From Sipunculus nudus (lineage: Eukaryota; Annelida; Sipuncula; Golfingiida; Sipunculidae), in NCBI GenBank assembly GCA_026874595.1, contig CM049319.1, positions 5,608,601 through 5,672,600 of the forward strand: DNA of 64,000 bases, read 5' to 3'. The translations under genes were made by a program, and so were the position numbers. Shown in pieces: positions 6,879 to 57,675 of this stretch (positions are counted from its first letter, which is position 1; each line of letters opens with the position of its first letter). Below the pieces are notes generated by a model. That model searched no databases and was not told the origin of the DNA. It was given only the letters and a program-made list of their open reading frames with translations.

Positions 6879-9026
6879 ACTGATCCTGATATAATTCCCT
6901 GAAACGAGAAAATATTGACAAAGTGATTGACAAAGTTGATGTATCCCAATAATTATCTTATACTTATGTGAACATCTGTTTATCACACAACACAACAGCC
7001 TCCTTGTGACAGGAAAACATTAAAAACATATCGAATATAAAAAAAACTTATTTTTGGCTATTGTGCTGTAGGTATGGAAATGTAAAGGCGAAAAACATAT
7101 AAATCAATCTTGATGTAGGTGGTTAATTGGATGGTTATTGTTTAGACTATACACGATATTTACAACTTATAAAGTTTAGGAAAAAGATACAGGTAGTAGT
7201 ACATACCACATTCAGAGAGACAGCTGACGTGACAGGAATAAATCATTCAACAAATGGGAACTGATTTTTCTGTTACTTTGATTCTCCATCAAATAGACTT
7301 AGGCATAAATAAAGACCATATCAAGCTCACAACTCTCAATAAGTCGCTAAGAGAATCCTGTGTACATGTATATTAATAAATAAGGGTCATAAAGAATCAA
7401 ACCTGTCCTAATAAAATTACGAGGCAACTAAAATAAAATCTGACAAATTATTCAACATTTAAACGTTCTTTTTCCGTTGACGGGTCAGAGGTAACTATCG
7501 TCTAGGTTATCCTTCTTTAACCTTAGATTTTCTATGTTCAGGAGCTATCATACGGTCAAAAGTAGGTGAACCAGGACAAAATGCAAACTCGATCTGGAAG
7601 AGGTAATTATGCACCCACAAACCAAAAAATTAGACCAATATCTGCAAGCATTGCAAAAAAAGGCCGTATATATGCATTTCTCATGAAAATTTCAAATTTC
7701 ATAAGTAAGACATCTGCGACGAAACGCAAATTTAATCTGTAACTGGTCATGATCTGGCGAGGTACAATAAATCAGGTCAATATCCGCAAGCACTGTGAAA
7801 AAAGTCCGTTCAAAAGTCTGTGAATTTACCATAAAAATTTCTATTTGCATGAGATTTTCTGTTATTTGGCCATCATACGGGACAAAACGCATTCTCGATC
7901 TGTAACTGGTCATGATCCAGCTACACACCAAAATTCAAGCTAATATCTGCAGGCATTGCGAAAAAACGCCGTACATGTGCATTTGTCATGAAAATTTCTA
8001 TTTTTCATGAAATTTTCTTTGTTCAGGAGCCCTCATACAGTCATATGTAGGTCAACCGGGACAAAACGCAAACTCAATCTGTAACTTGTCATAATTTGCC
8101 CAAACAACAAAATTCAGGCTAATATCTACAGGTATTGCGAAAAAAAGTCCCTACAACTGTTTGATTTCGGAATGACGGAAGGACGGAATGACGGACATGG
8201 GTAAAACTATATGCACCGGCCACTTTGTGGCGGGGGCATAAAATTGCTCTTATTTATAACGACAGAAAATTAGATTTTTTTTACATGATAATTTTGTTTA
8301 CTGTTATGTAAGAACTTAAAAAAAGCAACCTTAACATCGATCAGTCATATTTTATATAAAACAAAGTATTATAAAACGCTTAAGAAATCTTTGTATTTCA
8401 CGATGTCGTTACCTTTCTTAACACGCTTTAGAAACATAACCTTGATGGCATTACAGACTGCGTAAATAGTTTTTCTGACTAACATTAGACAGAATTAGAT
8501 CCAAATATAACCCTTTTGACTCAAAGATTCAAATGAATTGAGCAGCTTCTGAACAATTCTCTGAAAACATTACAATGATTGTTATTTTAATCGTGCATAT
8601 GTTGCATAAGTAATAAATCATATTGAAAAAAATTAGACCCATGTCAACTGATTGTATAAAACACTTAAGCATCGGCCATTTTCCTACTCCACTGTTATAC
8701 ATAATTAATGTTTAGTTATCATAATCCGTATGTTTACCAATATTCTTTCTACACTAATCAATAATAAAAGTACTGGTAATGTACACTGGTGATTGATGTT
8801 ACAAAAATTGAGAAAAACCAGCATTATCTTTTTAATTTTAAACAGGTGTTTCCTAACATAGATATGATTAATGTTGGGGGGTCAACAAATCTTTGATAGA
8901 AAATATAAATTTAAATTAATTTTAAAAAATTAAATAAATCGTATGAATACATGTAACCCATTTTATGCCTGCACAATTTTCAATTAGTGCTTTAGACAGG
9001 AACATCTACTGAAAACTAACACTCAC
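6831..9026 (-). other. 5'-UTR intron of the type I gene
   Basis: The intron runs from the donor at 9026 (exon ...GAGCAG|GTGAGT) to the acceptor near 6903 (GTTTCAG|GGAATT) on the minus strand; the leader exon then occupies about 6902-6830. The same non-coding exon, with 'tcgacaacagtgcg', recurs at 40756 and 62716 upstream of the other type I copies, which is the main evidence for it. The intron contains the repeat array at 7536-8245 and no other feature. Confidence 0.6.
7536..8245. repeat. Tandem array, units 142-178 bp, with acgg run and hairpin tail
   Basis: Four diverged units are marked by 'gcaagca.tgcaaaaaaaggccgt'-like sequence near 7652, 7794, 7957 and 8135. The array ends in 'acggaaggacggaatgacgg', then CTATATGCA and a hairpin (8219-8223 with 8227-8231, loop ttt), then 'gggggcataaaa'. 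It lies inside the type I 5' intron. The unit 3 copy (39.31-39.95 kb) has fewer units, so unit number has changed since duplication. Confidence 0.75.
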
Positions 9027-9027
9027 C

Positions 9028-9175
9028 TGCTCTCCCGCTGCCGCACTGTTGTCGAGGAATGACCTTAACTATTTCGGTGTTGACGGGACTATATACCTAT
9101 TGTACTGTCAGGTTTGTGTGTGGGTTGTTGATTTACAAACTCCAAAGCCACATCACGTAGACCTAAGTAATTACT
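9028..9175 (-). promoter_or_regulatory. Type I lectin promoter region, unit 1
   Basis: Reading on the minus strand, a TATA-like GGTATATAGT (9097-9088) lies about 35 bp before the start of the conserved non-coding exon. Further upstream, 'ccaaagccacatcacgtaga' (9142-9161) and the following 'cctaagtaa' are kept almost unchanged at 40869-40898 and 62919-62948. This block resembles CACGT-core and AGGTC half-site elements, but no factor can be assigned. Transcription start is inferred only. Confidence 0.45.
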
Positions 9176-9543
9176 GTTTATGGGGGAGTAAGTTTGGCGA
9201 AAAGGAAATTTTTGTTTTGTTTTTTTCTCAATGGGTTATTTATGCAGTCCGCGGTAACTTTATGCTATGGAATCAACTAAATTATGTCCTGGACCCCACA
9301 GGTGAACTACTAAAAACTAATTTAATTTCCTTATGACATCTCGAGGTATTCTGTCAATATATTCTGATATTTAATGGAACACTTGTTATCTTAACGTGGG
9401 CTGCTTTGACAAAGACTCCTTGATAGGGAAGTATTGTCTGTACTAATTAAAGGGGTGTTATTTGCAGTTACTTGTTTACAACACAATGACAAACTTATAT
9501 ACACACGTACACACATGTATATATATTATATATGCATATATCC

Positions 9544-10825
9544 CTCGAGCGACAAAGCTACAAAAATGACCGAGTGGGGTGTCATAAATGACCCCACTAC
9601 ATTTTTTAAAGAAATAGCACATATTATCGGTTCTCTTTGTGATCATCCTGCTTATGCTTTTTCTTTCTTTGGAACAATTAACGATTGTGTAATAACACAG
9701 TTTCATTTATTTGGACTATCATTCCCTGTTTCCTCTCTGAAACCCTTTTTGTCTTTATTGAAATAAGACTTGGAGAGAAATAATAGTTGTTTGATTGAAT
9801 TAATTATTTTAGTTTGCTAGCACCATATAACCACCATCATATCTATGATCACATAGTCTCCTGTTAAAGGGTAATATATATTCTACCATCACAGTTCAAA
9901 TCTGTTTGCCATGACTGACAGGTTTGAGTGGGATGCAGACTGGTAAACGCTGCCAACTGATCATACACAGACAGAGCAGAATGGGAAATAGGTTACAAGA
10001 TTTAGGTAAATGGGCACCACTTGCCATATACATTGTCTACATATCTTTGGAAGCATCAAGTTTGCCAAAGTTTTAATTGTCTACTTTGCTAGCTCAGCTG
10101 TCTAACCGCATGAACTTTAAGATATATTGGAGCCTTCTGGATATTCTGGTCATTGTTACTGTGAAGACTGATCAACCATCTGTTTTAAGCCAAAAAGGGT
10201 TTTGCGGTTCATGGTAGATTTTTATAACCATGCAACAATTCAAATCTTATACATAATTGCTTAGATCTAAGAATGATCAGCTGATTTATATTCCTGTATT
10301 TGGTTCTCATGCTGATTGCCATTTAACTCACTAAGATTTGCTTGGATTTGTTAGTTTCTAGTGTAATCAGGTGAATCAAGTCTACTGTCGCTGGTGTGAA
10401 AAACATTAAAATCAATGATTGAATGTTGTCACACCTTACTAATTTGATTTTCGGCGTTTTTTCCTGGTAATGACCGAATGTCTTAATTTAAAGACTTCTG
10501 AAGCAGTTAAAGCTGCTAAGCCCACCTGTCTCAGTCATATTTTAGTAGAAAACTTTGCAATATGTTAGTAATACACGGAAAATTCAGCAAAAGTCAGAGT
10601 CTATTATGTTAAAGAAAACCGTAACATCCCTTGGGTCACAAATGACCCCACAAAACTTTTCAGGATATATTCCACATCAATAGCCTATCCCTGTAAAGAA
10701 ATTGTGAAAATTGTAAGGAGGACTAAATTCATGGTAGGAAACAATTGTTGGATTAAATCGGCTCGTATAAATACATGGATGGGGTTATAAATGGGGTAAT
10801 AAATGACCCTACTTGGTCGCTTGAG
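9544..10825. mobile_element. Foldback element 'N', non-autonomous
   Basis: The left end CTCGAGCGACAAAG and the right end CTTGGTCGCTTGAG form inverted termini. Just inside, GTGGGGTGTCATAAATGACCCCAC is self-complementary, and similar 'aaatgacccca' palindromes recur near 10638 and 10800. Related copies are at 24692-25693 and 41071-42336. A frame from 9434 to 9766 is partly shared between copies but has no recognisable transposase motif. The family name is mine. Confidence 0.6.
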
Positions 10826-11044
10826 ATTTAAATACGTATAAATCATATTTATATAAGCTGTATTTGTCTACTACATTTAGTTACCTGAATATTTACTGCT
10901 ATTGCCACATGTTAGAGGATACAGTATATTCATCTTCATCTACATGCATATCTCTAGACTATTGTACTATTATTTCCAGTAATATTGTCATAATAATCAC
11001 CAGTGTAGAGACCAATGAATGTGTCTTATAAATTTATTCATATG

Positions 11045-11945
11045 TAGATTTAATAATACACATTAAAAAAAAGTCTTGTAGTTTTGCTCTTTCATGTTAT
11101 ACTCCTTGTTCTTTTATCATTAAATTTGTGATGTATTCTCGACAAATTACCGGACTCCAATCGATTGTTTAGTAAACGATAGTTATATAGTTTATAGACT
11201 AATGTACACCGCCTGTACATATTATATCATACGAAGAAGGAAATAAAAGTAACTTAGAAAACATGTACAGAGACGAAGGTTTTACATACTCCCCTCAACA
11301 GAGAATTTATATACCATAATATTATACATCGACTTCCTTTATGGCCTGAGTGTTATATTTACAAGTATCTAGTCGGATATTTCAAAAAGTATTTGAAATC
11401 CATAATCTTTACCTGTTGTTCCATTTTTGAAATCACAACCTGGAGTTGTGACAGCAACTAATGTTGTCTTAAGATATAATTGAAGTGCCTTGTATTTTAT
11501 ATTTATTTATTACTATTTGGGTCAGCTGGTCAAATTAGATTGTTAGGTTGCGAGATAATTTTCATCCATGATCCATGGAATATAATGTCATGTTGAACTA
11601 ATCGTCTTATTTTTTGTCGGAGGTAAACAATTTTTTATGCATTCTTAATCTAACCTATGAACAGATGAAGAATTCCAATTCTTTAAAGGATTACCTGACA
11701 AGCAAGGCCTTTCCATTGAGCCGGCGGAGAGCTCATCCTGGGTGGTAGCCGACCGTGAAATATCTCACTTCTCTTTGGCTGAGATCTCCCGGTTTTGATT
11801 CCTGCACTCTATAACTAGGGCACAGAAACCGGTCTAAGGTAATCGGTATATAAAACCATGAATAAACAATCAGATTACTAACTAAGAAAACAACAAATTT
11901 CTATTACATCACCTGCGGACACACTTGTTGATATCAATGGAAATG
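11045..11945. other. Spacer shared with unit 3; no gene
   Basis: 11045-11205 matches 42.55-42.75 kb and 11226-11945 matches 45.29-45.98 kb. Unit 3 has about 2.55 kb between these two blocks that unit 1 lacks. A tRNA-like box B ('ggttttgattcc') occurs near 11795 without a clear partner. Confidence 0.6.
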
Positions 11946-11949
11946 TAGT

Positions 11950-12805
11950 CGTTGAGTGAGTACAACAGTCAAGGTAGTGTTTCTGCATGTCACCCAAGAG
12001 ACTCTGAGACGGAGCAGTGAGAACACTCTCTTCTGGATACTTGCAAGTTTTAAACACATAAAAAATACGGATATATTTAATGGGGAATACTTTACCATCT
12101 CCAACATAAAAAATGATAGGAGGTTATGTAATTAACGCTATTTTGTCTATTTGTATGTTTGCTTACACAATACCTACAGAAATAAATCAGAATGAATCTT
12201 TCGCAGTAGAATTTCCATTGGCCTTGAACGAAACGCAAAAATATCAGTTGTCAATGTGATTTTACTTGGCACCCCTTTTTTGTCATTTTACCTGACATTA
12301 CACCCCTATTATAATGACATTAGCAAAAAACGTATCCCTGGCATGTTTTTAGAATATTAAGAACATTATCAGACGATTTCTCCTCTGCACGTTCTCTGAA
12401 ATAAACTGCCATTCATTCTCGATGTGTGCTCGCCACCTTAACGTTAAAGGTGTAAGGTTCCTTGAACAGTTAATCAGATATGGAGCTGACCAGTTAGATT
12501 TTGGGCAAATATGCGAGTCAGCCCTTGCATTGGGAGAGGTGTGCGATCTAACAGTGTTTCTATTTCATAGATTTGTTTCAGTTTATATATTATATCAATC
12601 ATGATAAGTGTGTTTTAGCACATACTTGAGAAGTGTTATGTGATATCCCGAACAGACAGGTGACTTTGCTATACAAAATATTTGAAAAAAGGGCCAATTT
12701 AAGATTATCTGCTGCAGGTTAAGGAAATTATTCGTTGCCAACAGAATATGTAATGAACATTAACATTCATGGCCTCTGTGTGGTTGTACCTTTGAGAGCT
12801 CAATG
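11950..12805. repeat. Dispersed repeat M copy, unit 1
   Basis: The X part has 'acggatatatttaatgggg' and 'gataggaggttatgtaatt'. The Y part begins near 12440. It is nearly identical to 45985-46850, and more distantly matches 15.74-16.56 and 28.34-29.36 kb. The frame 12422-12604 is only the local opening of this repeat. Confidence 0.65.
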
Positions 12806-13125
12806 CCTTGCACACTTCTGATGCTTAGGGCAATCGTCACTTATCTCGTTTAAATGGGTTCACAAGAACAAGGAAATTAATCTAATTGAGCAAACGTGTC
12901 TCGAAAAGAAGCATTACATAGGTACTTGACACTTACTACCCTCCCGCTGTCAATAAACTAAAGTAAAATATTTTGGTTACCCGCGTGCACACTTAATATA
13001 CAAGAGACACGATACAAGATTTATTCAATGCCAATACAGGAATTTGCTTTGCGGGTGATAGCATAATTAAGACAGTGGTCATTGAAAACAAAGACACAGT
13101 ACAAAAATAGTAGTAAGAATGAAAA

Positions 13126-14899: not shown

Positions 14900-15420
14900 T
14901 TCATCTTCATTATTACCAGGACCGCAGGGCGAAGGATATGCAACGGTGTAGTACTGATAGCACAGGTCCTGATGTGGTTATCAGGTTATATGTATCCAGT
15001 GCTGTGAAAGATTTTCCATTTCATTCTATCAGCATAGTTTTATCAACATTGATTAATTTGTATTCATTTTTACTGCATGTAAATGTAATGTAAATGTACG
15101 AATAAAGGGAGGTGAGTACATATGTCAACGGCAAGGCAATGTTTCCGTATGTTGTATTTCAGTTTCTTTAACCGTCGGTGGATATCTGATGTGAACCCAC
15201 TATGTTAAATCATTATCCACTCTAGAGATATTACTTAGGATCAGTGAGAACAGCTCTCTGGATAATTGCCATGGTTTATGGACCATCGAGAAATATGGAT
15301 ATATTTGCCCCCATGTATCGGGGTATCGTTTATTACCTCAAACGAACAAGTGGCCTATGGGCCATGACGCTCAGCTAATTTGACCGGGTGCTCGTGTTTT
15401 TTATTAATGTTATATATATT
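14900..15420. repeat. Dispersed repeat M, X part
   Basis: 'aaccgtcggtggatatctga' and 'ggatatatttgcccccatgt' recur at 26.83-27.1, 43.47-43.7 and 48.63-48.9 kb. No gene is seen. Overlapping frames at 14783-15093 are not conserved in phase between copies. Confidence 0.6.
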
Positions 15421-16560: not shown

Positions 16561-16638
16561 ATATTCCTGTCAATACTCCTACTTGTATGGCTTTGACACA
16601 TAGACACTATGCGTATATACATAGTATACTATATATAC

Positions 16639-16785: not shown

Positions 16786-16789
16786 ACAT

Positions 16790-17880: not shown

Positions 17881-17884
17881 AATC

Positions 17885-18589: not shown

Positions 18590-18624
<35 letters not shown>

Positions 18625-19449: not shown

Positions 19450-20865
19450 AACCCCGTCCAGCACACATCTATAAATGGTATAATAGCATCTTTCTACTTC
19501 GGATCAACGGACGAGATATGACGAGAATAGACTCGGTAGAGCTTAAAACATGCCACAGTCGGAAACCCGACCGCCTTAGCAGGTTGGTGAAATCTAACTT
19601 CTCGTTTGTCTGAGTGATACGACGAGACTTGTAGTCTAGTCTCTGAGAGTTTATCAGATGCTATGAAACGTAATAATCTAGACTTGTTTAGCCAACAAAC
19701 CGACCCAGTTAATGTTTTGTTCTCTTGGACCACAGCAGGTGTCGCGAGATTTGATGCAACACTGACAGCTCGTCACATGTGATCCATCGCAGAACATTTG
19801 ACCTCTTTAAAATAAAAAGTGACCAAATTATAACCGTTCTTGCCAATTCTCGCATATTCTGTGTCTATTTAAGCATATAAAATATGCAGAAAACCCTATA
19901 CCCTATGCAGAAAAAATGGAACTCTGTAGCACCAAAAGTGAAGGGATTGAAAAATATGGCTCGGTATTCTGAATTTCAATAATCTTATCGAAATACGTAA
20001 CCATAGCTAGAACCCATACCAACCATAATGTTATTTTAGGGGTATTATGAAAAAGTTATTGATACTGTTCATAATTATCGAGGTATCGCAGAGAGACAGT
20101 TTTCCCTACTTTGCAACGCCTTCTGGTGGATATAACCGCATAGAAAACGATAGACTCTTACCTTGGGGCAGGTATATATCTTTGATCTGCTTTGAAGATT
20201 TTGCCTACATTTCTGACACAACCCACAACAATGGCATATCATACCATTCCTTCCTGGGCCATGCATGGTATACGTAAGCCTAACTTGAGTCGTGATACAA
20301 GCTAAATCGAGGAATAAATCGCAGTGGTTTCCCATCATATTGCCTGCATATCCTGGTAAACAACCCATAAACATAAAAATAGGCTACAAATGATGATTTA
20401 ATACAAAGCAATACATGTGAACTCACAATCCAAATTGATACTTCGTCTCCATGGTAACGAGTAATTTTCTGTATCGCGTACAGTTTGGCTGCCGTCAAGT
20501 AACCCGTTCGAGCCTTGCTTGTATGCATGCGGTCAGAAATTCAACATGCTAAGGCATTTACCAATATGCTGAGTAAAATCGGAACTTTTCTCGCTCATGT
20601 AAGGTTTTGTAAGAGGGTGTACTAATAAAGCTTACGATTTACTGGTTATGTCAATTGACAGCGTACCTGTAGGCCTTGAGGCGTAAAAAATGACGACAAT
20701 ATTTATACATCTTCATAGAAACCTATAGTGCGTTCCTCGCTGAAGGATGTAACTTCACTCTGACAGGCAGTTTGTACGCTAATCGTGGACTCTTTCATGT
20801 CAGAGAACCGAAATAGCGCTAGGACTATAGCCGCAAGACGGAAGCTGGCGAGTGAAACAAATATA
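19450..20865. repeat. Irregular tandem array 'P' 3' of the type II gene, degenerate hairpin tail
   Basis: Related phrases recur at irregular spacing ('tgacgagaatagactcgg', 'cgacgagacttgtagtctag', 'gcagaaaaaatggaactctgtagc'). The right end reads GACTATAGCCGCAAGACGGAAGCTGGCGAGTGAAAC, where the left arm of the hairpin seen at 54375 and 34897 has mutated. Equivalent arrays follow the other two type II genes at 33.84-34.93 and 53.04-54.41 kb. The frame 20047-20277 lies inside and is treated as non-coding. Confidence 0.5.
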
Positions 20866-20869: not shown

Positions 20870-22470
20870 GAGTAAAGCTTTAATTTTACATGTCTGCTGA
20901 TGGTTGACTCTCATTCCCGTTGAAATTAGAACCATCAACAGTTTACTCATACAGTAACTTTGGTGGGTCACTTAGTAATTCTTTAGATTTCTAGTGTGAA
21001 GCTGAAAAGTTGATATATTTATATAAAAATTGAACAAAATGGCGTCTTTGCGAATGAATATATAATAAATGTTATGTCTGAAACATGTGTGAATTGTGCC
21101 ATCATGTGTTGGTTAGTTTGCAGTTTTCGAAGTCATAGCTGAGTTATCTACATGTCATTCATCCACCTGGCTAGTAATTAATATGTGACATTTGAATGGT
21201 TCTTTTCAAGGGGTCAAATCGAGCAGTCACAGATAACTATATGAGGAGACACAATAATATTCTACCTTAATCGATAGATCCCTAACATGGGATGAAGTTG
21301 TTGCACCATAATATTATGGATAAGCAACAGCTGTCGATTAATATTTCTTTAGTTTTATAAGTGACATGTTAGCGTTTCCAAAGACAGATAGCGACTATTA
21401 AACTCTATTACATTGGAAATCAAACCATTTATAGAAGAATGCATGATAACAAACAAATAAAGCTTGTTTTGGTGACCCGCCTTTGTATATTAACATCAAC
21501 TAGCGTTCGAGCATCATGTTTAAAAGAGAGAAGAAAGAAGGAACGAAAGAAAGAGAAAGAGAGCGAAAAGTTTATTGAACTGTATGAGTAAATTCCTCTT
21601 GCTTCAGTAAACTAGCTTGCTGCATCCGGATCTGTCCAAATTTTAACATGACAATAAATAATTTTGAGACCACGTGGAAGATGAACTTGAAGTTGATAAT
21701 ATTTGAATAGTTTCCAAAGAAGCTATTAATAGCTCAGCACATATGTGGACACAACCACAAATGTGTTTCAGAACTACTTCCATATTTTCGTATTAAATCA
21801 AGTGGCATTATACCATAAAACAGTCACGCTAATCTCTGAGTACACCTTTTTTATGTGGGCTGCTTGTCATCATTTAAGAAAAAGTTTTTTCAAACACGCA
21901 TCTTACTATAATTTAAGTGATATTCTTTTTTACATTTTGCCGATATGCGTTCCCTTGCAACCAAATTGTCTCCTCTTCCAGGACGTTATCATCGGAATAC
22001 TCTCTTGTCGAATCCCCGTTATCTAACCCTTAAGGGTACATTGAAACCTGGATGTCATATATCTCTTGTAGAAAGTATGGGTAAATCCCTAGTTTGGCAA
22101 ATTTATGCGTGAAAATACACAGTGGGTACATAACATTTAATTAGTCAGAAATGGCTTTGAATTAAAGTAATCATCATATATAAAAATCATATTATTCTTC
22201 GTATGTATCCGCATACATATTGGAACGTATAAAGACTGATGCAGCAGTAACATGATTATTATATATAATTATATCCTGCTGAAAAAAGGTGCTAACATAA
22301 TGAAGAAAATACTATTGGATAAATCATAAACGTTAAACAAAAATCCAATAAAATATTCTTTACATAATCCCTTGTCATACATCTGTTTTCACCAACAATA
22401 TCCGATTTTGCTGTCCTAATCTTGCGGGCGTAAGGAGCATTAGGTTGTTATTTTTCTTTCAACAAATTGC
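20870..22470. other. Intergenic, end of unit 1; no gene seen
   Basis: 'cctcttgcttcagtaaacta' and 'ttttaacatgacaataaata' are shared with 35.6 and 55.4 kb, so this is the common 3' flank of the type II genes. A purine-rich stretch lies at 21521-21571. Confidence 0.5.
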
Positions 22471-33839: not shown

Positions 33840-34925
33840 TCATTTCTGATCAAACGGGCGTGATTTGACGAGACTAGGCTGAGCTTATAAAATGCCACAA
33901 AATGCAGAAACCAGATCTCTCCAGCACTAAACGTGACAGAGTTATGAGCAGGTTCGTGAAATCTTCTTGTTTGACTGAGATATATGACGGACTTGTATTC
34001 TAGTCACTGATTAACAGAATGTTTTGAAAAGCAGTAATCTTGACTTGTTTAGCTAACAAATTGACCTCGTTAATGGCTTATCTGTTAAATCTTGCACATT
34101 CTCGTACGACAGCAGATGTCCTGATTTATTCAGCTTGCAGCTATGTCACTGATAGCTCGTGATATACTATCTAACGCAGAAATTTAGACCTCCCGATACA
34201 TTCTTGTTTGATGCCACTGCTGACAAGAGTTGACGAGTATGACAACATTGTCTATTCAAACATATATTAAATACTACCCATTTCGGAAAACTAGATCTCT
34301 CAAGGCTGAATAGTGACCGAGTTATAGCCATTTTTGCCAACTTTTGTATATTCTCTTTTGACGCTAATTTTGCCAAGATTTGATATAAGTGTGTCAACGA
34401 AAACTTGTCATTACTATCCTATGCAGAAAACTAGACCTCTGTAGCATCAAACGTTAAGGAAATAGAAAAATGACGCTCCATATTTAGAATTGCAATAATT
34501 TTACCCTAAATACTAATCAAGGCTACTGCAAAATAAGACCCCTGATCCTCAGAAAGATGTGATATTGTTTATAGTTATTGAGGTATCGAAGGAAGACAAT
34601 TTACCTTAATTTGCATGGCGTCTTGTGGACATAGCCGCATAGAACACAACATAACCCTACCTTATGCCATATCAAAAAGAGTGGCCTATTTGAAGACACT
34701 GCTATCAGGCATGTCTGAGATCGCACAAAAATGACATTTCTTTCTTTTAAAGCTGCCGCGGTCCCTGAAGGTGACGATAACAATTGGGTTCTTTTCTTGG
34801 CCATGCTTGGAATTTTGCCTAAGTTTGAATACTTCGCCTTCTGTCATGTCCTAGAAGATTTGACAAACAAACAGACACGATGATAGTACTATAGTAGCCA
34901 GCCGGAAGCTGGCGAGTAAAACAAA
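33840..34925. repeat. Irregular tandem array P, unit 2, with hairpin tail
   Basis: 'gcagaaa.tagac/atctct' landmarks occur near 33903, 34175, 34263 and 34422. The end reads ACAGACACGATGATAGTACTATAGTA and then the hairpin GCCAGC-CGGAA-GCTGGC (34897-34913), followed by GAGTAAAAC. Confidence 0.6.
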
Positions 34926-39309: not shown

Positions 39310-39950
39310 ATGTTCAGGAGCTATCACACGGTGCATTAGTCATTAAAATATCATTTTTTTATGAAATTTACTTTGTTCAGGAGCCCTCATGCAGTGATAT
39401 GTAGGTCAACCGGGACAAAACGCAAACTCAATCTGTAACTAGTCATAATAATTCCAAACACCGAAATTCAGCCTAATATCTGCAGGTGTTGCGAAAAAAA
39501 GTCTGTACATGTGCAATTATTATGAAAATTTCAATTTTTATGAAATTTTCTATGTTCAGGGGCCGTCATACGGTCAAACGTATATCAACCGGGACAAAAC
39601 GCAAACTCGATCTGTTATTGGTCATTATGCACTCGCACACCAAAGATCAGGCCAATATCTGCAAGCATTTCGAAAAAAGGCAGTACATGTGCATTTTTCA
39701 TGAAAATTTCTATTTTTCATTTAATGTACTTTGTTCAGGAGCCGTCATACAGTCAAAAGTAGGTCAACCGGGACTAAACGCAAACTCGATCTGTAACTAG
39801 TCATAATTTGCCCAAACAACTAAAATCAGGCTAATATCTACAGGTATTACGAAAAAAAGTCCCTACAACTGTTTGATTTCGGAAAGACGGAAGGACGGAA
39901 TGACGGACATGGGTAAAAATATATGCACTGGCCACTTTGTGGCGGGGGCA
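39310..39950. repeat. Intronic tandem array, unit 3 copy, with hairpin tail
   Basis: Three units are marked near 39490, 39668 and 39847, against four in the unit 1 copy. The end has 'acggaaggacggaatgacgg', then ATATATGCA and the hairpin GCCAC-TTT-GTGGC (39931-39943). Confidence 0.7.
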
Positions 39951-40756
39951 TAAAATTGCTCTTATTTATAACGACAGAAAATAAGATTTTTTTACATGAT
40001 CATTTTTTTTACTGTTATGTAAGAACTTAAAAAAAAGGAACCTTCGATCAGTCATAATTTACATAAAACAAAGAATTATAAAACGCTTAAGAAATCTTTG
40101 TATTTCACGATGTCGTTACCTTTCTTAAGACGCTTTAGAAACATAACCTTGATGGCATCACAGACTGCGTAAATAGTTGTTCTGACTAACAATAGACAGA
40201 ATTAGATCCAAATATAACCCTTTTTACTCAAAGATTCAAATGAATTGAGCAGCTTCTGAACAATTTTCTGAAAACATTACAATGATTGGTATTTTAATCG
40301 TGCAAATTATTACCTAAGTAATAAATTATATTGAAAAATTTTAGACCCATGTCAACTGATTGTATAAAGCACTTAAGCAACGGCCATTTTCCCACTCAAC
40401 TGTTATACCTAATTAATGTTAAGTTGATATTTTTACATTATCATAATCCGTATGTTTCCCAATGTTCTATCTACACTAATCAATAATAAAGGTACTGGTA
40501 ATGTACATTGGTGATTGATGTTACAAAAATTCAGAAAAATCAGCATTATCTCTTAATTTTAAACAGGTGTTTCCTAACATAGATATGATTAATGTTGGGG
40601 GGGGGGGGGGTCAACAAATCTTTGATAGAAAATATAAATTTAAATTAATATTAAAAAATTAAATAAATCGTATGAATACATGTAACCCATTTTATGCCTG
40701 CACAATTTTCAATTAGTGCTTCAGACAGGAACATCTACCGAAAACTAACACTCGCC

Positions 40757-41070: not shown

Positions 41071-42336
41071 AGCGACAAAGCTACAAAAATGGCCGAGTGG
41101 GGTGTCATAAATGACCCCACTACATTTTTCAAAGAAATAGCACATATTATCGGTTCTCTTTGTGATGATCCTGCTTATGCTTTTCCTTTCTTTGGAACAA
41201 TTAACGATTGTGTAATAACACAGTTTCATTTATTTGGACTATCATTCCCTGTTTCCTCTCTGAAACCCTTTTTGTCTTTATTGAAATAAGACTTAGAGAA
41301 AAAGATTGAATTAATTATTTCAGTTTTCTAGTATTATATAACCATCATCATGTCTATGATCACATAGTCTCCTGTTAAAGGGTAATATATATTCCACCAT
41401 CACAGTTCAAATCTGTTTGCCATGACTGACAGGATTAAGTGGGATGCAGACTGGTAAACGCTACCAACTGATCATACTCAGACAGAGCAGAACGGGAAAT
41501 AGGTTATAAGATATAGGTAAATGGGCACCACGTCCCATATACAATGTCTACGTATCTTTAGAAGCATCAAGTTTGCCAAAGTTTTAATTGTCTATTTTGG
41601 TAGCTCAGCTGTCTAACCGCATGAACTTTAAGATATTTCGGAGCCTTCTGGCTATTTTGGTCATTGTTACTGTGAAGACTGATCAACCATCTGTTTTAAG
41701 CCAAAAAGGATTTTGCGGTTCATGGTAGATTTTTATAACCATGCAACAATTCAAATCTTATACATAATTGCTTAGATCTAAGAATGATCAGCTGAAATCT
41801 ATTCCTGTATTTGGTTCTCATGCTGATTGTCATTTAACTCACTAAGATTTGCTTGGATTTGTTAGTTTCTAGTGTAATCAGGTGAATCAAGTCTACTGTC
41901 GCTGGTGTGACAAACATTAAAATCAATGACTGAATGTTGTCACACCTTACTAATTTGATTTGCGGCGTTTATTCCTGGTAATGACCGAATGTCTTAATTT
42001 AAAGACTTCAGAAGCAGTTTAAGCTGTTAAGCCCACCTGTCTCAGTCATATTTTAGTAGAAAACTTTGCAATATGTTAGTAATACATGGATAATTCAGCA
42101 AATTCAGAGTCTATTATGTAAAAGAAAACCGTAACATTCCTTTGGTCACAAATGACCCCACAAAACTTTTCAGAATATTTCCCACATCAATAGCCCTATC
42201 CCTGTAAAGAAATTGTGAAAATTTTAAGGAGGACTAAATTCATGGTAGGAAACAATTGTTGGATTAAATCGGATCGTATAAATCCATGGATGGGGTTATA
42301 AATGGGGTTATAAATGACCCTACCTGGTCGCTTGAG
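41071..42336. mobile_element. Foldback element N, unit 3 copy
   Basis: The right end CTGGTCGCTTGAG is intact. The left end starts at AGCGACAAAG because about 195 bp including the outer left terminus is deleted relative to unit 1. Confidence 0.55.
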
Positions 42337-42739: not shown

Positions 42740-45290
42740 CTACTCGACAGCGGTTTAGATATCAAGAATACCTAAGTAAAACTACCATTAACTGATGAAT
42801 AATTACAATACATGAAATTTAAAAATATGTATAACTTTAATGGAACTGAATATTTTTAAACTTTCATTCATGCTAAAATGACCTAAGAGGGCAACCTGGG
42901 ATCCATTATTTTATTTGATTGAGCTGTTCTCGCTAAGACACTAAAGAACACCTCTCAACAGACAAGACAGTGTTTATGTGGGAGTGGTTAATGTGGTTTA
43001 TTCTCAGTGACCGATACCTCCGTTGGTATATGTCTGAAGTGATTCCTCTAGGTTAAATCATTATCATGTGAACCTCCTTGATATAAAGGCGTCGGGCAGC
43101 GTATACACCCTTCACTGAATAAATGTCATGCTTATCAGCACCGTCATAAACACGGATATATTTGCAGACCACGCAAAGGGTAAGCGTTCATTACCGCCAG
43201 CATCAAAATATGAAGGAGGTTATGTAATCAGAGCTGTTTGATCACACTATAGCACTATAGCACTAGAGTGATTTGACAGCAAAATAAACAAAAACATATT
43301 TTAGAAAATTTCCATCAGCGGAAGCATTAAATATACAAGAATATATTCCTTTGAAATGTGTTATTTTACAACCACACCATAAGAATTGAAAAAACGAAAT
43401 ATATATACAAATCTACCATCTTTACAAAATGTAATGTGTAATTTTTGTACCTTTCACGACCATAATGCATTTAAGGGAGGTACATACACATGTCAAGAGG
43501 CCAGGCAATGCTTCCGTATGTTGTATTTTATTTTTTCTAACCGTCGATGGATATCTGACGTGAACTCCATTACGTTGACTCATTATCTACCCAGGAGGCA
43601 TTACAGGGGAACAGCGAGAAGACTCCTTTGCCATGTTTGAAACAACATCAAGAAATACGGATATTTGCCGCCTATGCATCGGGGATTCGTCTGTTACCTC
43701 AAACAACAAAATAGATAAATGTAATGTCATCAACTCTATCTTATCTGTTTGTATGTTAGCTTAAATAATAGCCGAGGGAGTTAATCTTAAAGCGATTTTG
43801 CAGAAGGGTAACCCGGGGACTTGAAAGAAATGCGATCTGTTGGATTGTAGTTTTAAATGGTGATTTAGATCGGCACCGTTTTGCTAATGATGTATAACCA
43901 ATTACGAGCATCGGATACACCTGTTCCTATGCATAAAATGAAATTTATTGCTATCGATATATATTTCATATTGATTTTTATTTTGGTTATGCTAGCAGTC
44001 CAACAGACAGATTTGACTTTATCATTATGTATCCTTACTCCTTACAAACTGAATTGTGTAGGCTACAGTCGTCCCATATAACATGACAACAGAGTAATGT
44101 GTAAGTGGAAAATTTAATCTTACAGTTTCATATTTTTTCAATATTGTTGATAAATTTTGCAAATATTTTATAACAAAACTAGATAAGGTCGGACAATGGT
44201 CCTCAGAGGACCCCGCATTTCTGGTACTGCTGTAGTAGTTTACATATGGGTGAAAGGTTAAGGTTAAAGTTTTAAAATATGACTAACAGAATTAGGTTTT
44301 ATCCATATACATCAGGGAAAAGTCCTACTTGTTCAAATAATATTAAAGAAGAAAGAAAATCAGTGATTGGGCTGTGATGGCCATATTGGAATTCCTACAG
44401 GTGAGTAATTCAATAGGTCTGGAGCCCTCATTTGTACCAATCTTGCCTGTGACGTTGGGAAAGCTGAAGTTTGTTTCTATTGAGATATCGTTCGCGAAAG
44501 GAAATCAGCGACTGGCCTTTGGCAGCCATACTGGAATTCCGACAGGTCTGTTAATCAACAGGTGTAGAGCCCTTGTATGTACCAATCATCCCTGTGAATT
44601 TGGGAAAGCTGAAGAATGTTGTTGTTGAGTTATCGCGCGCGAAAGAAAGTGTCTCTGACGGAAGGACGGAAGTACGGAAGGACGGAAGTACGGAAGGATG
44701 GACTGACACGGTGATCACTATAGGGCACCGCTTGTCAAGCGGGGTCATAAAAATGTTCAGGTCATCAGTACCAGGCTCTCCAATTAACTAAATTAAGTGC
44801 TATTAGATTCTAACACAAATCATGTCAGATACGCTTGCCCTTTTCAGTCATGCTCCGGAGAGGGAATGATTATATGTTTCATTAAGTACGGCCAAATGGA
44901 AGACGCACGTGGACCCTTAGTAAACAAGGACCAAATATATATTTGGTTCATGTTAAACAAGAGTATGAGGAAAATTAATTCAATAGATGTGTTCCACGTT
45001 TTAGCTTGTTCTGTCACGTTGCTTTTATGACACAGTGGTCGAAAGCCCATGGCTTATCTAACCTTCTTTCCAAGAGAGCATGCTCCGGACATATCTATAA
45101 TGAACTTATTGTTGGCCGAAAACAGGACTTGAACTTGGTGGGCGTTAGGCCTATAAAAATAGATCTGCATCTTGGAGCAGCAACTGTACTAGGCCTATTA
45201 ATTCCAAACATACACCACTCATACTGTTACTGCTGACTCCGCACAGACTTCTGGAGCTTGGGATACAGATCGCTAATATCGCTTAAGTGG
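42740..45290. other. Segment present in unit 3 but missing from unit 1
   Basis: Flanks are continuous in unit 1 around 11205-11226 ('gcctgtacatattat' then 'tcatacgaagaaggaaat'). The first half (to 44.03 kb) matches unit 2 at 26.0-27.35 kb and contains two X modules, so unit 1 probably lost it. The second half holds the array at 44210-44765 and a stretch at 44.77-45.29 kb with nothing recognisable. Confidence 0.65.
44210..44765. repeat. Tandem array 'Q', two 144 bp units, with acgg run and hairpin tail
   Basis: Units begin near 44358 and 44502 ('aatcagtgattgggctgtga' and 'aatcagcgactggcctttgg'), and both end in 'gagatatcgttcgcgaaagg'-like sequence. Then comes 'gacggaagtacggaaggacg' repeated, GTGATCACTATAGGGCA, the hairpin CCGCTT-GTC-AAGCGG (44728-44742) and 'ggtcataaaaa'. 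Confidence 0.75.
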
Positions 45291-50090: not shown

Positions 50091-50180
50091 TAAACATTGA
50101 AAATATTCCTGTCAATACTCCTACTTGTATGGGGTTGACACAAAGACGCTCTGCGTATATACATAGTATACTATATATAC

Positions 50181-50327: not shown

Positions 50328-50334
50328 ACATTTT

Positions 50335-51395: not shown

Positions 51396-51399
51396 CATG

Positions 51400-51551
51400 G
51401 CGTGTGATTCGCTGCGTGATATTTACACTGCTTTTGATTGACAGCTACTTATCTGAGGGAAATATAAGAATGGATTGGACGCTTGTTTACCACAGCTGCC
51501 ATAATCAATCGGGCTGAACACCTCAACAACCAAGCACGTATAGAACCATCG
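51400..51551 (+). promoter_or_regulatory. Type II lectin promoter and non-coding exon, unit 3
   Basis: 'gcgtgtgattcgctgcgtga', 'gacagctacttatctgaggg' and an intact TATA-like AAATATAAG (51460-51468) lie about 30 bp before the exon, which contains 'cacagctgccataatcaatc' and ends ATCG|GTAATG at 51551. Start site is inferred. Confidence 0.55.
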
Positions 51552-51863
51552 GTAATGTGTAATTCATTTTTGCTCACTTTGAAAGAGAATGCTAAATGCA
51601 ATATTGTACTCAAACGACTTAGTGATTGATTATCACTTTTATTATTATAATTATTACCATTATTATTATTAGTCTTATTATTATTTTAAGCAGAAGAAGT
51701 GTAAAAATAGTTTTTTTTACATTTAGTCAACAGTGTTCCAGGTTGTAAAACGTACAAATTCATGATCTTGTATAGGACAAGAGATACTTCTACAATAGGT
51801 TTTAATCGGTAAAAGTTGATTTCGTTTTATTAATTCATTTCAGGAAAATCCTGGCACAGGAAA

Positions 51864-52738
51864 ATGAGTCCTTATGCCTGTCTGATTTTTGCACCCATAG
51901 TGCTGGCAACAGGTTGTATATCTTTATAATTTTGAGACTTCCTAGGTTCAAATAAATACAATTTTGTATTTAAAGATACCAATAATCAAGATACATGTAT
52001 ATATCTTCTGTTACTGTGAACTAAAGGAAAATGTCTGAATCTACATAAAGATGAGTTGGAGGTACAATGGAGACACAATTTGTACAGCAGTTCAAAGCCT
52101 ATTTTAGTAAAGATAGGGCCAATGTGGATATTGAGAACTTTTGATGCTACATTCGGATGTTTCTTTAAACGAATCAAAATCTACACAGAGTGAAAAAATG
52201 GGGTAGATATTATAAATTGGTGGGTTTTGAAAACCTAGGAGAGAGAGAGAGAGAGAGTGAGAGAGTAAGTGTGTGCTAAAGACTGAAGTTATTTTTGCTC
52301 CTCCATTCAGCCCTAGGTAGCAAAATGGGGTACTCTCACCGGTATCACCATGGACAAGTACAAATAGTGATGAAGCCGTCCTGCTATATGTTCGTCCACG
52401 CTGCTTACTTCTGGTTGGAGGCGAAGGACTACTGTCAGAAAACGGGAGGAAGGTTGGTCAGTGTCGAGACAAAGGGTGAGAACGACCATCTACTTAGGAT
52501 CGTCCGGCGATATCCAAACCGCTATTTCTGGACAGGGGGGAACGATATATCTGTTGAGGGAGACTGGCGCTGGCTGGCTGGACATACAAAAATATCTTAT
52601 GATGATTGGAATCGAGGGCAACCGGACAATGATCACGGTAAAGAAGACTGTCTCGAATTTAACAAGGACCTCGGATTTCATTGGAATGACGCCCCTTGTG
52701 GGTCAAGGAAGGCATTTATTTGTGAGAGGGTTTGCTAA
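51864..52738 (+). CDS. Secreted C-type lectin-like protein, type II, intact
   Basis: Coding exons are 51864-51912 (49 nt, MSPYACLIFAPIVLAT, ACAG|GTTGTA) and 52311-52738 (CCATTCAG acceptor), joined in phase 1 into 158 residues. The leader exon itself starts at 51844 after TTTCAG. Residues 1-16 form the signal peptide; a His/Tyr-rich linker follows (GYSHRYHHGQ). The CTLD runs from Cys41 to Cys158 with WTGGND, EGDWRW, galactose-type QPD at 120-122, EDC, and WND at 141-143. Six Cys in the domain (41, 58, 130, 146, 154, 158) suit the two standard CTLD bridges plus one linking Cys41 to the C-terminal Cys. AATAAA is at 52769. It is the only undamaged type II gene here. Perlucin-like CTLDs act as secreted pattern-recognition or shell-matrix lectins; which applies is unknown. 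Confidence 0.9.
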
Positions 52739-53039
52739 AAATCATAGTGGTAAATAACTCACATGATAAATAAAAAGAGATTTTTATGTTGAATCTGGTC
52801 TTGCATCACAATAAAAATCTCGATAAAATTCTTAGCTGATATCTTTTATTTGCTATTACGTATCAATTAAGCAGTAACTTATCACAGCATTTTTACTTTA
52901 AGGAAGTACAACTCCTTGTAATTTTTATAAATTTATATATTTAATTTGACACATCCTAATTCATGGATAGAAAGAAATTTGAAATATATAACATACTATA
53001 ATCCTGACAAAGTCGCAAACCCTGTCCAGCACACATCTA

Positions 53040-54415
53040 TAAATGGTACAATATAGCATCTTTTAACTTCGGATCAACGGACGAGATATGACGAGAATGG
53101 ACTCGGTAGAGCTTAAAACATGCCACAGTCGAAAACCCGATCGCCCTAGCAGCTTCTCGTTTGTCTGAGTGATACGACGAGACTCGTAGTCTAGTCTCTG
53201 AGAGTTTATTAGATGCTATGAAACGTAATAATCTAGACTTGTCTAGCCAACAAATCGACCGAGTTATGATTTGTTCTCTCGTGACATTTGATGCAACACT
53301 GACATCTCGTCACATGTTATCCAACGCAGAAAATTTGACCTCTCTAAAATAAAAAGTGACAAAATTATAACCGTTCTTGCCGATTCTCGCATATTCTGTG
53401 TCTATTTAAACATATAAAATATGCAGAAAAACCCTATACCCTATGCAGAAAAAATGGAACTCTGTAGCACCAAAAGTGAAGGAATTGAAAAATGTGGCTC
53501 GGTATTCTGAATTTCAATAATCTTATCGAAATACGTATTCATAGCTAGAACCCATACCAACCATAATGCTATTTTTTTAGGGGCATTATGAAAAATTTAT
53601 TGATATTGTTCATAATTATCGAGATATCGCAGAAAGACAGTTCTCCCTACTTTGCAACGCCTTCTGGTGGATATAATCGCATAGAAAACGACAGACTCCT
53701 ATCTTGCGGCAGGTATAAAGCTTTGACCTGCTTTGAAGATTTTGCCTACCTTATCCTCAAAAATTGCCCATCAAACCATTTCTTCCTGGGCCATGCATTG
53801 TATACGTAGGCTGGTAAGCCTCACTTGAGTCGTGATACAAGCTATATCGAGGATGAAACCGCAGTGATTAACCATCATATTGCCTGCATATCCTGGTAAA
53901 CAACCCATAAACATAACAATAGGCTACGAATGATGATTTAATACAAAGCAATACATGTAAACTCACAACCCAAATTGATACTTCGTCTCCATGGTAACGA
54001 GTCATTTCCTTTATCGCGCACAAGTTGGCTGCCGTCAAGTAACCCGTTTGAGCCTTGCTTGTATGCATGCGGTCAGAAATTCAACAAACATGCTAAGGCA
54101 TTTACCAATATGCAGAGTTAAAAAGGAACTTTTCTCGCTCATGTAAGGTTTTGTAAGAGAGTGTACTAAAAAAGCTGAAGATTTACTTGTTATGTCAATT
54201 GACAGCGTACCTGTAGGCCTTAAGGTGTAAAAAATGACGACACTATTTTTACACCCTCATAGACTTACAGTGTGTTCCTTGCTGAAGGATGAAACTTCAT
54301 TCTGACAAGCAGTGTGTACGATGATCATAGACTCTCTCATGTCAGAGGACCGAAATGGCGCTAGGACTATAGCCGCCAGCCAGAAGCTGGCGAGTGAAAC
54401 AAATATAAAACAGAG
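53040..54415. repeat. Irregular tandem array P, unit 3, with hairpin tail
   Basis: Same order of blocks as 19.45-20.87 kb. The tail GACTATAGCC, hairpin GCCAGC-CAGAA-GCTGGC (54375-54391), then GAGTGAAAC is intact here, whereas the unit 1 copy has a mutated arm. Confidence 0.55.
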
Positions 54416-54615
54416 TATAGCTTTAATTCTACATATATGCTGATGGTTGACTCGCAGTCTCGTCTGAAATTAGAACCATCAACAGTTGACTCATACAGTC
54501 ACTTAGATGGGTCACTTAGTTATTTTTTAGATTCCTAGTGTGAAGCTGAAACGTTGATATATATATATATATATGTAGGAATAGCCATGCTGGTTCATTG
54601 TTTTATAGATGGAAA

Positions 54616-54770
54616 GGGTATACACAGAAAAATGGTTCACTGCCAGTGGGATACGAACCCACGATCTTCCGATTTCCGGTGCGGTTGACTTAGTCCTCTT
54701 GGCCATGATAGATCCCCAACCCCTCTGTGTATTTGTACACTGGCTGTGAACCACTTTTCTGTGTATACCC
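54616..54770 (-). mobile_element. tRNA-like foldback element, recent insertion in unit 3
   Basis: The ends, 25 bp each (54616-54640 and 54746-54770; outer sequence GGGTATACACAG), are inverted with one mismatch. Inside, on the minus strand, are an A box (TGGCCAAGAGG) and a B box (GGTTCGTATCCC) of tRNA type. The unit 1 equivalent (21.01-21.04 kb) runs from 'gctgaaaagttgatat' directly to 'aaattgaacaaaatggcg', so the element and the flanking (TA)n were gained after the duplication or lost from unit 1. Confidence 0.65.
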
Positions 54771-54773
54771 TTA

Positions 54774-54775
<2 letters not shown>

Positions 54776-54822
<47 letters not shown>

Positions 54823-54832
54823 CATATATATA
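54776..54832. repeat. (TA)n microsatellite
   Basis: TA run flanking the tRNA-like element; shorter TA sequence also lies on its left at 54557-54573. Confidence 0.9.
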
Positions 54833-54839
54833 AATTGAA

Positions 54840-55985
54840 CAAAATGGCGTCTTTTCAAATGAATATCTAAAAAAATATTATGTGTGAGACGTGTAAATTG
54901 TGCCATCATGTGTTCGTAAGTGTGCAGTTTTCAAAGTCATATCTAAGTTATATACATGTCATTCATCCACCAGGCTAGTAATTAATATGTGCAATTTGGA
55001 TGGTTCTTTTTCATGGGGTAAAATCAAGCAGTAGGATAACTCTATGAGGAGACACTATAGATCCCTAACATGGGATGTTATTGTCGAAACATAATAATAT
55101 GGATAAGCAACAGCTGTCCATCAATTTTTCTTTAATTTTATAAGTGACATAATAGCGTTTCCAAAGACAGATAGCGACTAATAAACTCTATTCCATTGGA
55201 AATTAAACCATTTATAGAAGACTGCATGATACCAAACAAACAAAGCGTGTTCTGGGGAACCCCCTTTATATATTAATATCAACTAGCGTTCGAGTATGTT
55301 TAAGAGAGAGAAAGAAAGAAAGAGAAAGAAAGCGAGAAGTTTATTAAACTGTATGAGTAAATTCCTCTTGCTTCAGTAAACTGGCTTTCTGTATCTGGAT
55401 CTGTCTAAAGTTTAACATGACAATAATTAATTTTGAGACTTCACGTGGAAGATGAACTTGAAGTTGTTCATATTTGAATAGTTTCCCAAGAAGCAATTAA
55501 TAGCTCAGCACATATGTGGGCACAACCACAAATGTGTTTCAGAACTACCTCCTTATTTTCGTATTAAATCAAGTGGCATTATACCATAAAACAGTCAATT
55601 AAATCTCTGAATATGCCGTTTTTTTAGGTGGGCTGCTCGTCATCATTAAAAAAAAGTGGTTATTAACACGCATCTTACTATAATTTGTCATATTATTCTC
55701 CGTATCTATCCGCAACATATTGGAACGTATAAAATGTGATGCATCAGTAACATTATTATAATATATAATTATATCCTGCTGAATAAAGATGCTTACATAA
55801 TGAAGAAAATACTATTGAATAAATCATAAACGTCAAAACAAACAAGTGACCCATGGGTCCTGACGCTCAGCTGACTTGGAAGAGATTCGCAAAAGGAAAT
55901 TTTATCATCTGAATGGTAGTATATACCCATTCAACTGAAGCATCAAACAGATTTTCCAACAGGCCATGATTGTGTCTGTATTTAT
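54840..55985. other. 3' flank of the type II gene, end of unit 3; no gene
   Basis: Matches 21.03-22.3 kb, including 'gagaagtttattaaactgta' and 'aacatgacaataattaattt'. Confidence 0.5.
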
Positions 55986-55989
55986 ATAT

Positions 55990-57675
55990 CACACAAATAA
56001 AGAAAATTATCCATGCAAAGAATCATGGTTAGCATGCATTAGTTGTTCAGATACTTCAGCTTTTGTATCTAATAGTCCATTTTTCTTAGGGATACTTCAG
56101 AGTACTATAGCCTGAAGGATATGGGAAACAGAGACCTAATTTCAGGTTTCCACAGACACTTTTCATGGGCCTCATTGCATGACAAGAATGAAGATTTTAG
56201 GCCCAGTGGTTACGATTTGTAGCCTGTTAACAGATAACCACATCTTCAAAGGTCTCAAAAATAGAGAAAAAAATTCGTAAAAATTTGAAAAAAAAAAATA
56301 AAATAAAGGTGGCACAACCAGTCTGCAGGAACTGATGGAACGCCTCATGATCAATATGTATGCCAAAATCATGACCATCAGTGTTGTAGTTATTGAGATA
56401 CTGCAGTTTTTGTATCAAAATTTTCATTCTTCTGGAGGGTATTTTGGAGCCATTCAACTTAAAGGATACGTGTAACAGAGACCTAATTTCAGGTTTCCAT
56501 GGAGAATTTTCATGGGTCTCCCTGTGTGTCAAGAATGAAGATCCTAGGTCCAGTTATTATGATTTGTGCCCTGTTAACAGATGTTCATATCTTTAAAGGT
56601 CTCAAAAATAGAAAAAAAAATTCTTAAAAAAACCCCGAACAAATATAGGTGGTGCCACCAGTCTGCAGAAACTGATGAAACACTCCATGATCAATATCCA
56701 TGCAAACAATTACGGTGATCTCTGCATTAGTTGTTCGGATGCTTCAGCTTTTGTATCAAATTTTCAATTATTCTGAGCTGTATTTTGGAGTGCCATAGCT
56801 CAAAGGATATAGGTAACAGAGACCTAATTTCAAATTTCCATGGAGAATTTTCATAGGTCTCCATGTGTGTCAAGAATGAAGATTCTAGGTCCAGTCGGTA
56901 CGATTTGTACCCTGTTGACAGATGACTATATCCTTAAAGGTCCCAAAAATAGAGGTAAAAAAAAAATGTAAACATTTGAAAAAAATACAGGTGGCGTCAC
57001 CAGTCTGCAGGAACTGTTGGAACAGCTCTTGATCAATATGTATGCCAAAATCATGACCATCAGTGTTGTAGTTATTGAAATGTTGCAGTTTGTTTTTATC
57101 AAATTTTTCATTATTCTGTGGGGGAAATTGGGAGCCCCACAGCCCAAAGGATATGGGTGAACATAGACCTTATTATAGGTTTCCATGAAGACTTTTCGTA
57201 GGTCTCTCACTGTGTCAAGAAACGAGATTCTAGGTCCAGTCTTTGCGATTTGTGCCCTGTTAACAGATGTTCACATTTTTAAAGGTTTCAAAAATAGAAA
57301 AAACAATTCGTAAAAAATCGAAAAAATAGGTGGCGCCACCAGTTTGCAGAAACTGATGAAACATCTCATTATCAATACGTATGCCCAAAATAATTACCAT
57401 CATTGATGTAGTTAATGAGATATTGAAGTTTTTGTATGAAATTTTTGACTATTCTGGGGGATACTTTGCGGCCCCATTGCTCAAAAGATATGGGTAATAG
57501 AGACCTAATTTCCAGATTCCGTGGAGATTTTTCATGGACCTCTCAAAATGCCAAGTTAAAAGATTCTAGGTCCAGCGGTCACGATTTGTGCTTGGTTAGC
57601 GGACGGACAGACGGACAGACGACGGACAAAGAGTGATCGCTATAGCTCAGATGACTTTCAGTCATCTGAGCTAAA
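55990..57675. repeat. Tandem array 'R', unit about 344 bp, with acgg run and strong hairpin tail
   Basis: The landmark 'aaaggtctcaaaaatag' recurs at 56251, 56598, 56939 and 57284 (spacings 347, 341 and 345), giving about four and a half units. The last unit is cut by 'ggacggacagacggacagac', followed by GAGTGATCGCTATAG and a perfect 14-bp stem with a 3-base loop (57643-57673, left arm TAGCTCAGATGACT), then 'aaaaacc'. Frames inside are not conserved between units. Confidence 0.85.

Follow-up and report, generated by a model that had tools for sequence, protein, structure and literature searches.

Seven tandem arrays in a Sipunculus nudus gene cluster as very probable cores of non-autonomous Helentrons, and a Rep-coding Helentron with the ends of one of their families

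Why do tandem arrays with unrelated repeat units end in the same tail? The question is raised by a stretch of 64,000 nucleotides of the Sipunculus nudus genome (assembly GCA_026874595.1, contig CM049319.1, positions 5,608,601 to 5,672,600 of the forward strand; the window hereafter). There, a first-pass annotation described arrays at 8.2, 20.8, 34.9, 39.9, 44.7, 54.4 and 57.6 kb, each closed by an acgg run, CTATAG or a variant, a perfect stem and an A-rich end, in weaker form at 20.8, 34.9 and 54.4 kb. These seven arrays are very probably the cores of minus-strand non-autonomous Helentrons (HINEs), one family of which is probably moved by a Rep-coding Helentron. The HINE type itself is already known from oysters; new is a Rep-coding Helentron with the ends of the F1 family, to which the element at 57.6 kb belongs. 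Below, L0xx designates genome regions outside the window, and C1, C5, C8, C9, C10, C13 and C17 are genome places sampled.

The plus strand at 44.7 and 57.6 kb shows the acgg run, GTGATC(A/G)CTATAG, a perfect stem and an A-rich stretch in succession. The acgg/agac run is shorter at 8.2 and 39.9 kb, where the hexamer reads CTATAT and ATATAT, respectively, and each stem contains one mismatch. At 20.8, 34.9 and 54.4 kb CTATAG adjoins the stem in a weaker form, with a broken stem at 20.8 kb. The common design stands at four sites and more weakly at these three. On the minus strand, the parts of the tail succeed one another as in the 5′ head of the oyster Cg_HINE elements: 5′ subterminal inverted repeat (subTIR), complementary inverted repeat, GTCY microsatellite, array, 3′ subTIR and palindrome (accessible text of PMC7492417). 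This order predicts a subTIR and a palindrome at the far end, and the prediction held at 57.6 kb (subTIR 11/13, palindrome GACCCATGGGTC) and at 44.7 kb (10/13, GGTCCTC-AGA-GGACC). No such far end was found in the window for the elements at 8.2, 39.9, 20.8, 34.9 and 54.4 kb. What had been taken for the end of an array is thus the 5′ head of a minus-strand element, the far end having been missed.

In the genome, four consecutive ACGG units are present 11,349 times on one strand and 11,209 times on the other, versus 28 and 31 times for the reversed pattern (overlapping matches within one run counted separately). Forty regions, around all but the last of the first 100 such places listed and all on C1, hold 44 distinct run clusters. 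CTATAG lies within 100 nt in 41 of these, a stem is present as well in 37 and AAAA in addition in 32; among 20,000 random places, 758 have CTATAG and 230 also the stem. The three clusters without CTATAG correspond to an unlike sequence (L029), a truncated head (L038) and a variant head with ATATAG (L041). In the window, CTATAG alone is not enriched (19 matches versus 15.0 ± 3.7 in shuffles); the expectation that the tail exceeds shuffled sequence fails there for the hexamer, but is borne out in the genome regions. A marker consisting of GTGATCRCTATAG with three mismatches was rejected, its 15 matches being fewer than the shuffle mean of 27.8; exact matches are only two, the heads at 44.7 and 57.6 kb. 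A CTATAG scan of the window and L009–L048 yields 222 sites, 50 of them abutting a stem and 48 of these with GTCY units too, versus 0–21 stems and 0–1 cases with GTCY for 12 control hexamers. As 45 of the 50 are plain F1 heads, and two of the other five F1 variants, the scan documents mainly F1. A de novo finder relying on a tight subTIR match in 11 sequences missed F1; it returned 14 candidates, among them one real element (F3 in L021), the remainder being chance-like except for a stray pairing with an old 3′ end near 15.35 kb.

Pairing of heads with 3′ ends gives 36 complete F1 elements, the window copy included, and leaves 19 further heads unpaired. Their subTIRs, AGCTCAGCTGAC and GTCAGCTGAGC, are subterminal and in the range of 11–15 bp, the 5′ inverted repeat is complementary to the subTIR and is followed by the GTCY microsatellite, as in oysters, and the 3′ terminus is CTTG (CATG in L016). 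Identity between the closest relatives reaches 98.4%. Internal direct repeats of at least 150 bp occur in 29 of the 36 elements, 28 of them at offsets of 650–684 bp, and are missing from seven; Tandem Repeats Finder (TRF), limited to 500-bp units, reports an array only in the window element. Elements with the 341-bp repeat and those with the 650–684-bp offset have both ends in common. The 78-bp window head (57600–57677) is ∼84% identical to the heads in L001, L005 and L006, whereas the core at 57.6 kb aligns with none of the 35 other complete F1 elements (E 1e-5), though both ends agree; cores of its type are present in L020, L023 and L025. One F1 head goes with at least two unrelated cores. 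The earlier proposal of one machinery with an exchangeable core is upheld in this family, to which its support is limited. In L015, L017, L023, L045 and C17:35639646-35640369, only one 3′ end follows two heads, or an array-head-array series, on the same strand, an arrangement such as rolling-circle tandems or successive insertions next to a head would leave.

The probable partner of F1 is found among Rep-coding loci. With 150 of 195 candidates scored, PF14214 (Rep) has at least 143 matches in the genome, compared with 0 in 14 control genomes. In the three loci read, C8, C13 and C17, open frames combine Helitron_like_N and DUF6570, and Rep motif 2 is RGSPH throughout, with the Helentron-type S; a C-terminal endonuclease exceeds the Pfam cut-off in C8. 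The N-terminal protease-like domains differ (L049–L051), with OTU in C8 and a Herpes_teg_N match in C13 and C17. The frame at C17 is flanked by both F1 ends on the same strand: a head precedes it by 6.1 kb and a 3′ end follows 1.0 kb after it, with 14.2 kb between the two (distances from coordinates). The 3′ end at 57.6 kb is identical to that of this Helentron at 34 of 36 nt. C5 and C10 match C17 with 98.6–98.8% identity over 1081–1097 bp, and the match stops at CTTG/TT, the F1 3′ terminus, beyond which the flanks of the three copies differ. A search with the 5′ 2 kb of C17 (40 of 7,946 candidates scored) gives at least nine copies spanning at least 1,900 bases, C17 included. In four of the nine full-length copies listed (C17, C5, C10 and C1:71.79 Mb), Rep follows in the same orientation 9.0–9.9 kb downstream, and C9:52.36 Mb, with a shorter 5′ match, has it at 10.0 kb. 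As read from these sequences, F1 HINEs have both ends in common with an autonomous Helentron, a comparison that covered F1 only. The stretches fetched at C8 and C13 contain no F1 head or 3′ end (exact matches; downstream also with two mismatches), so that their Helentrons probably have other ends, and no Rep open reading frame was recognized by eye among 11 frames of at least 170 aa in the C1 sample. Immediately next to the C10 Helentron, which occupies a T-run, is the 3′ end of another F1 HINE (L058, C10:71594650-71596650).

Head and tail at C17 could also stem from different elements, if the Helentron had landed in or beside an F1 HINE. Nesting is frequent in this genome, and array sequence like that behind the head is also found just upstream of it. 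Yet the 3′ terminus is common to three copies with unrelated flanks, no match to the sampled HINE cores follows the C17 terminus in the stretch fetched, and the 5′ region recurs, with Rep 9.5–9.9 kb downstream in the same orientation, at three places other than C17 (C1, C5 and C10); such a composite is quite improbable. Equally hard to sustain are canonical Helitrons, which have 5′-TC and 3′-CTRR ends and insert between A and T. A CTAG does follow the palindrome in F2 and F3, at the opposite end from where the first-pass annotation had noted the absence of CTRR and, for want of it, played down a relation to Helitrons. But the 5′ ends are TTAG or TATG, with no 5′ TC, F1 ends in CTTG at a T^T target, the elements possess subTIRs together with a 5′ inverted repeat, and the Rep motif 2 of the loci read, like the fused endonuclease of C8, is of Helentron type. 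A canonical Helitron is thus disfavoured for F1, and the machinery is in all likelihood that of a Helentron.

Insertion sites agree with a Helentron origin. A T precedes the head in 35 of the 36 F1 elements, the exception being a damaged head (L012), and TT follows the 3′ terminus in all 36; the AAAA of the tail, previously counted as part of the design, is mostly host target. Joined flanks of 38 elements (the 36 of F1, the L034 element and the F3 element of L021) were compared with the sampled sequence, in which an uninterrupted paralogue exists for 21, all of them F1 elements of the C1 sample, which supplies the empty sites asked for at the outset. The join is one base longer than the empty site in 11 cases, equal in three, two bases longer in two and otherwise in five; for the 11 matches of at least 90% there is one extra base in eight, none in two and two in one. 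These lengths fit insertion at T^T accompanied by minimal duplication or none at all, the behaviour reported for HINEs (accessible text of PMC4067079). The target is T-rich and lacks a target-site duplication, a 1-bp T duplication being indistinguishable from a T of the element. Two F1 HINEs (L031, L032) reside in one ∼45-bp tandem repeat, as judged by eye, and its other units are empty sites. Miniature inverted-repeat elements (MITEs) belonging to a cut-and-paste transposon, the original description of the bivalve pearl elements, would likewise be short with inverted repeats near both ends, but the repeats here are subterminal and unequal in setting, the joins are only 0–2 nt longer than the empty site in the 11 best matches and the partner codes for Rep, which makes them most implausible. 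Just as implausible are satellite arrays with a tail common by chance or as a structural feature: the window enrichment of CTATAG with an adjoining perfect stem is mild (5 of 38 readings versus 754 of 20,000 random places, one of the five, at 55055, being outside any element), but the ends are defined, uninterrupted paralogues exist and nearly identical copies are dispersed, which refutes this for F1.

How could such elements move and acquire their arrays? At the start of the element, the subTIR pairs with its inverted copy in a terminal hairpin; in L034 and the usual F1 copies, this pairing includes the terminal TAG and the CTA of CTATAG. The GTCC microsatellite, a core that is often tandem, the second subTIR, the palindrome and CTTG (F1) or CTAG (F2, F3) then follow in order. 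We infer that the Rep/helicase-endonuclease of the autonomous Helentron probably nicks at the 5′ hairpin, that one strand would be copied by rolling circle up to the 3′ palindrome, and that the copy would insert between two T's. More tentatively, and with some doubt, tandem cores may derive in part from an array in the 5′ leader of the autonomous Helentron through recurring internal deletions, rather than from captured satellites. From base 2 to 566, the 57.6-kb element and C17 are collinear (75%), and the C17 array is matched by the array units of this element. Among the matches listed, 13 further places match only bases 1–684/686 of the 5′ query and six only bases 1–993, at 96–98%, and most of the 13 continue with more array units in place of the leader. 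By their sequence, and with their far ends outside the part read, these shorter matches are interpreted as array-bearing HINEs, internal-deletion derivatives of the C17-type Helentron with arrays changed in length. Head and array would be kept together since rolling-circle replication would start there; later repeats would collapse or expand towards the 3′ palindrome, and recurrent deletions could create new families that carry arrays while the pair of ends stays the same. In the C1 sample, the ∼680-bp cores have no match to the C17 leader beyond the head region, and that core is therefore of other origin.

Several points weigh against Helentron mobilization. No element was seen to move. All but one of the 36 complete F1 elements derive from regions that were chosen for ACGG runs and lie within the first 3.4 Mb of a single contig. 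The L034, L021 and window elements are not among the 21 empty-site matches, and five of the 21 joins deviate (+10 in L025, +5, −1, −3 and −19 in L035), each of them in a match of under 90%. As for the partner, the endonuclease match of C13 falls just short of the Pfam cut-off and that of C17 is weak (E 0.052), and the C17 copy was read in pieces, with ∼3.35 kb between L051 and L054 unread, which explains why no helicase was seen there. Among the Rep matches listed (150 of 195 candidates scored), none is near the other five of the nine full-length 5′ copies, and the heads at C5 and C10 take their positions from search coordinates, not from sequence read there. The F1 3′ subTIR begins ∼33 nt from the end, nearer than the 38–60 nt of mites. 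Finally, searches for the 3′ ends of F4 and of the F3 copies in the window found none, and F2–F4 lack a partner, so that partners for these families are presumed only.

Self-comparison identifies the window as a tandem cluster of paralogous blocks (Table 1) that spans 5600–63800, with A and B 93–95% alike over long parts; its frames appear C-type-lectin-like, a name taken from the frames without a family search. The blocks around 8.2 and 39.9 kb are ∼87% alike and those around 20.8 and 54.4 kb ∼89%, the 34.9-kb block being a more distant paralogue. Because these five sites lie in duplicated blocks, the seven arrays amount to about four insertions. Nor are tandem arrays found everywhere: TRF reports none with a unit >50 bp at 8.2, 20.8, 34.9 or 54.4 kb, although irregular repeats are visible at 8.2 kb in the self-comparison. 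The 57.6-kb insertion is missing from block A (22334–22356), and block C agrees with its absence, but the alignment is poor there. F1-type 3′ ends (CAAGTGGCCTATGGGCCATGACGCTCAGC) at 15347 in block A and 48867 in block B, with no counterpart at the equivalent positions around 27.05 and 43.69 kb, mark another old insertion.

In F2 and F3 the subTIRs are G+C-rich and all 3′ ends read (window 44.7 kb, L034, L021 and L028) are CTAG. The F2 subTIR of the window has only 8 bp in a row; because a second 10/13 match occurs at 42314, the palindrome (GGTCCTC..GAGGACC) and the CTAG beside it decide the end of the 44.7-kb element. The other F2 member, in L034, is 75.8% identical over 99 bp of head and microsatellite, and no empty site is readable at 44.7 kb from the block comparison. 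F3, with relatives in L021, L046 and L028, has subTIRs of ∼10 bp (TGCCCCCGCC and GGCGGGGGCA in L021 and L028) and the palindrome GTGTCG..CGACAC. A precise uninterrupted site for the 8.2-kb element was sought and none is readable; its units and those at 39.9 kb may resemble BIV160 or CvA. For F4, neither a subTIR pair nor a palindrome was found; its head at 54.4 kb has no GTCY run (two units), and a related head is present in L012:∼888–942.

Table 1. Elements, their parts and duplicated blocks of the window
Feature	Position	Strand	Basis or remark
Complete F1 HINE, 1831 bp	55843..57673	−	Both ends by F1 head and 3′-end motifs
F1 5′ head, subTIR and inverted repeat	57640..57673	−	14-bp perfect stem, ends in CTATAG
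F1 GTCC/GTCT-type microsatellite	57600..57630	−	acgg run on plus strand
F1 tandem core, 341-bp unit, 4.3 copies	56115..57589	−	TRF; matches array in C17 Helentron 5′ region
F1 3′ end	55843..55876	−	subTIR GTCAGCTGAGCG, palindrome GACCCATGGGTC (55848–55859), terminal CTTG
F2 HINE	44179..44750	−	5′ head near 44749; 3′ CTAG 44179–44182; subTIR at both ends 10/13
F2 CTATAG and head hairpin	44718..44742	−	
F2 two 145-bp repeats and ACGG microsatellite	44351..44702	−	TRF
F3 element	7536..8240	−	Head 8207–8240; irregular repeats 7536–8155; 3′ end not recognized
F3 element, duplicate of 8.2-kb copy	39331..39951	−	179-bp repeats; 3′ end not recognized
F4 head	54367..54403	−	CTATAG 54367–54372, stem 54374–54392; other end not found
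F4 head, paralogous block C	34889..34925	−	
F4 head, paralogous block A	20825..20862	−	Decayed stem
Duplicated block A	∼5.6–23 kb		Self-comparison
Duplicated block C	23.4–36 kb		Self-comparison
Duplicated block B	38–56 kb		Self-comparison
Duplicated block D	58–64 kb		Self-comparison

Comparison with known systems, for which the articles cited were accessible in part, places these elements close to Cg_HINE of the Pacific oyster (PMC7492417), which likewise has a TT target without duplication and satellite-like repeats, and in which some elements combine related ends with unrelated repeats. Helentrons, HINEs and DINE-1 of mites and Drosophila (PMC4067079) have subTIRs, a 3′ palindrome and a T-rich target, as here. 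In that account, HINEs are deletion derivatives, Rep/helicase is fused to an endonuclease, Rep motif 2 contains S and Helentron proteins are already reported from molluscs. Unlike those elements, the present coding element carries a tandem array beside its 5′ head, and the 3′ subTIR lies ∼33 nt from the end. Bivalve repeats of the pearl (CvA etc.) and BIV160-like types (PMC5139131) are similar in their short arrays with a microsatellite and their modular build, and the satellite Helitron groups of oysters (PMC8268682), compared by description, comprise several elements with common terminal boxes. No other report of a link between HINEs and an autonomous Helentron was found in the bivalve literature within reach, which excludes most subscription articles; autonomous elements were not detected in one oyster study (PMC7992393), going by its accessible text. 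HINEs spread satellite-like arrays in oyster genomes, with a mover not known in that work (PMC7492417, PMC7992393, as far as accessible), and Cg_HINEs could not be related to autonomous Helentrons (PMC7492417), whereas F1 is tied to one here. A coding element with both ends of F1 and a related 5′ array makes the origin of such arrays, captured or inherited, directly testable.

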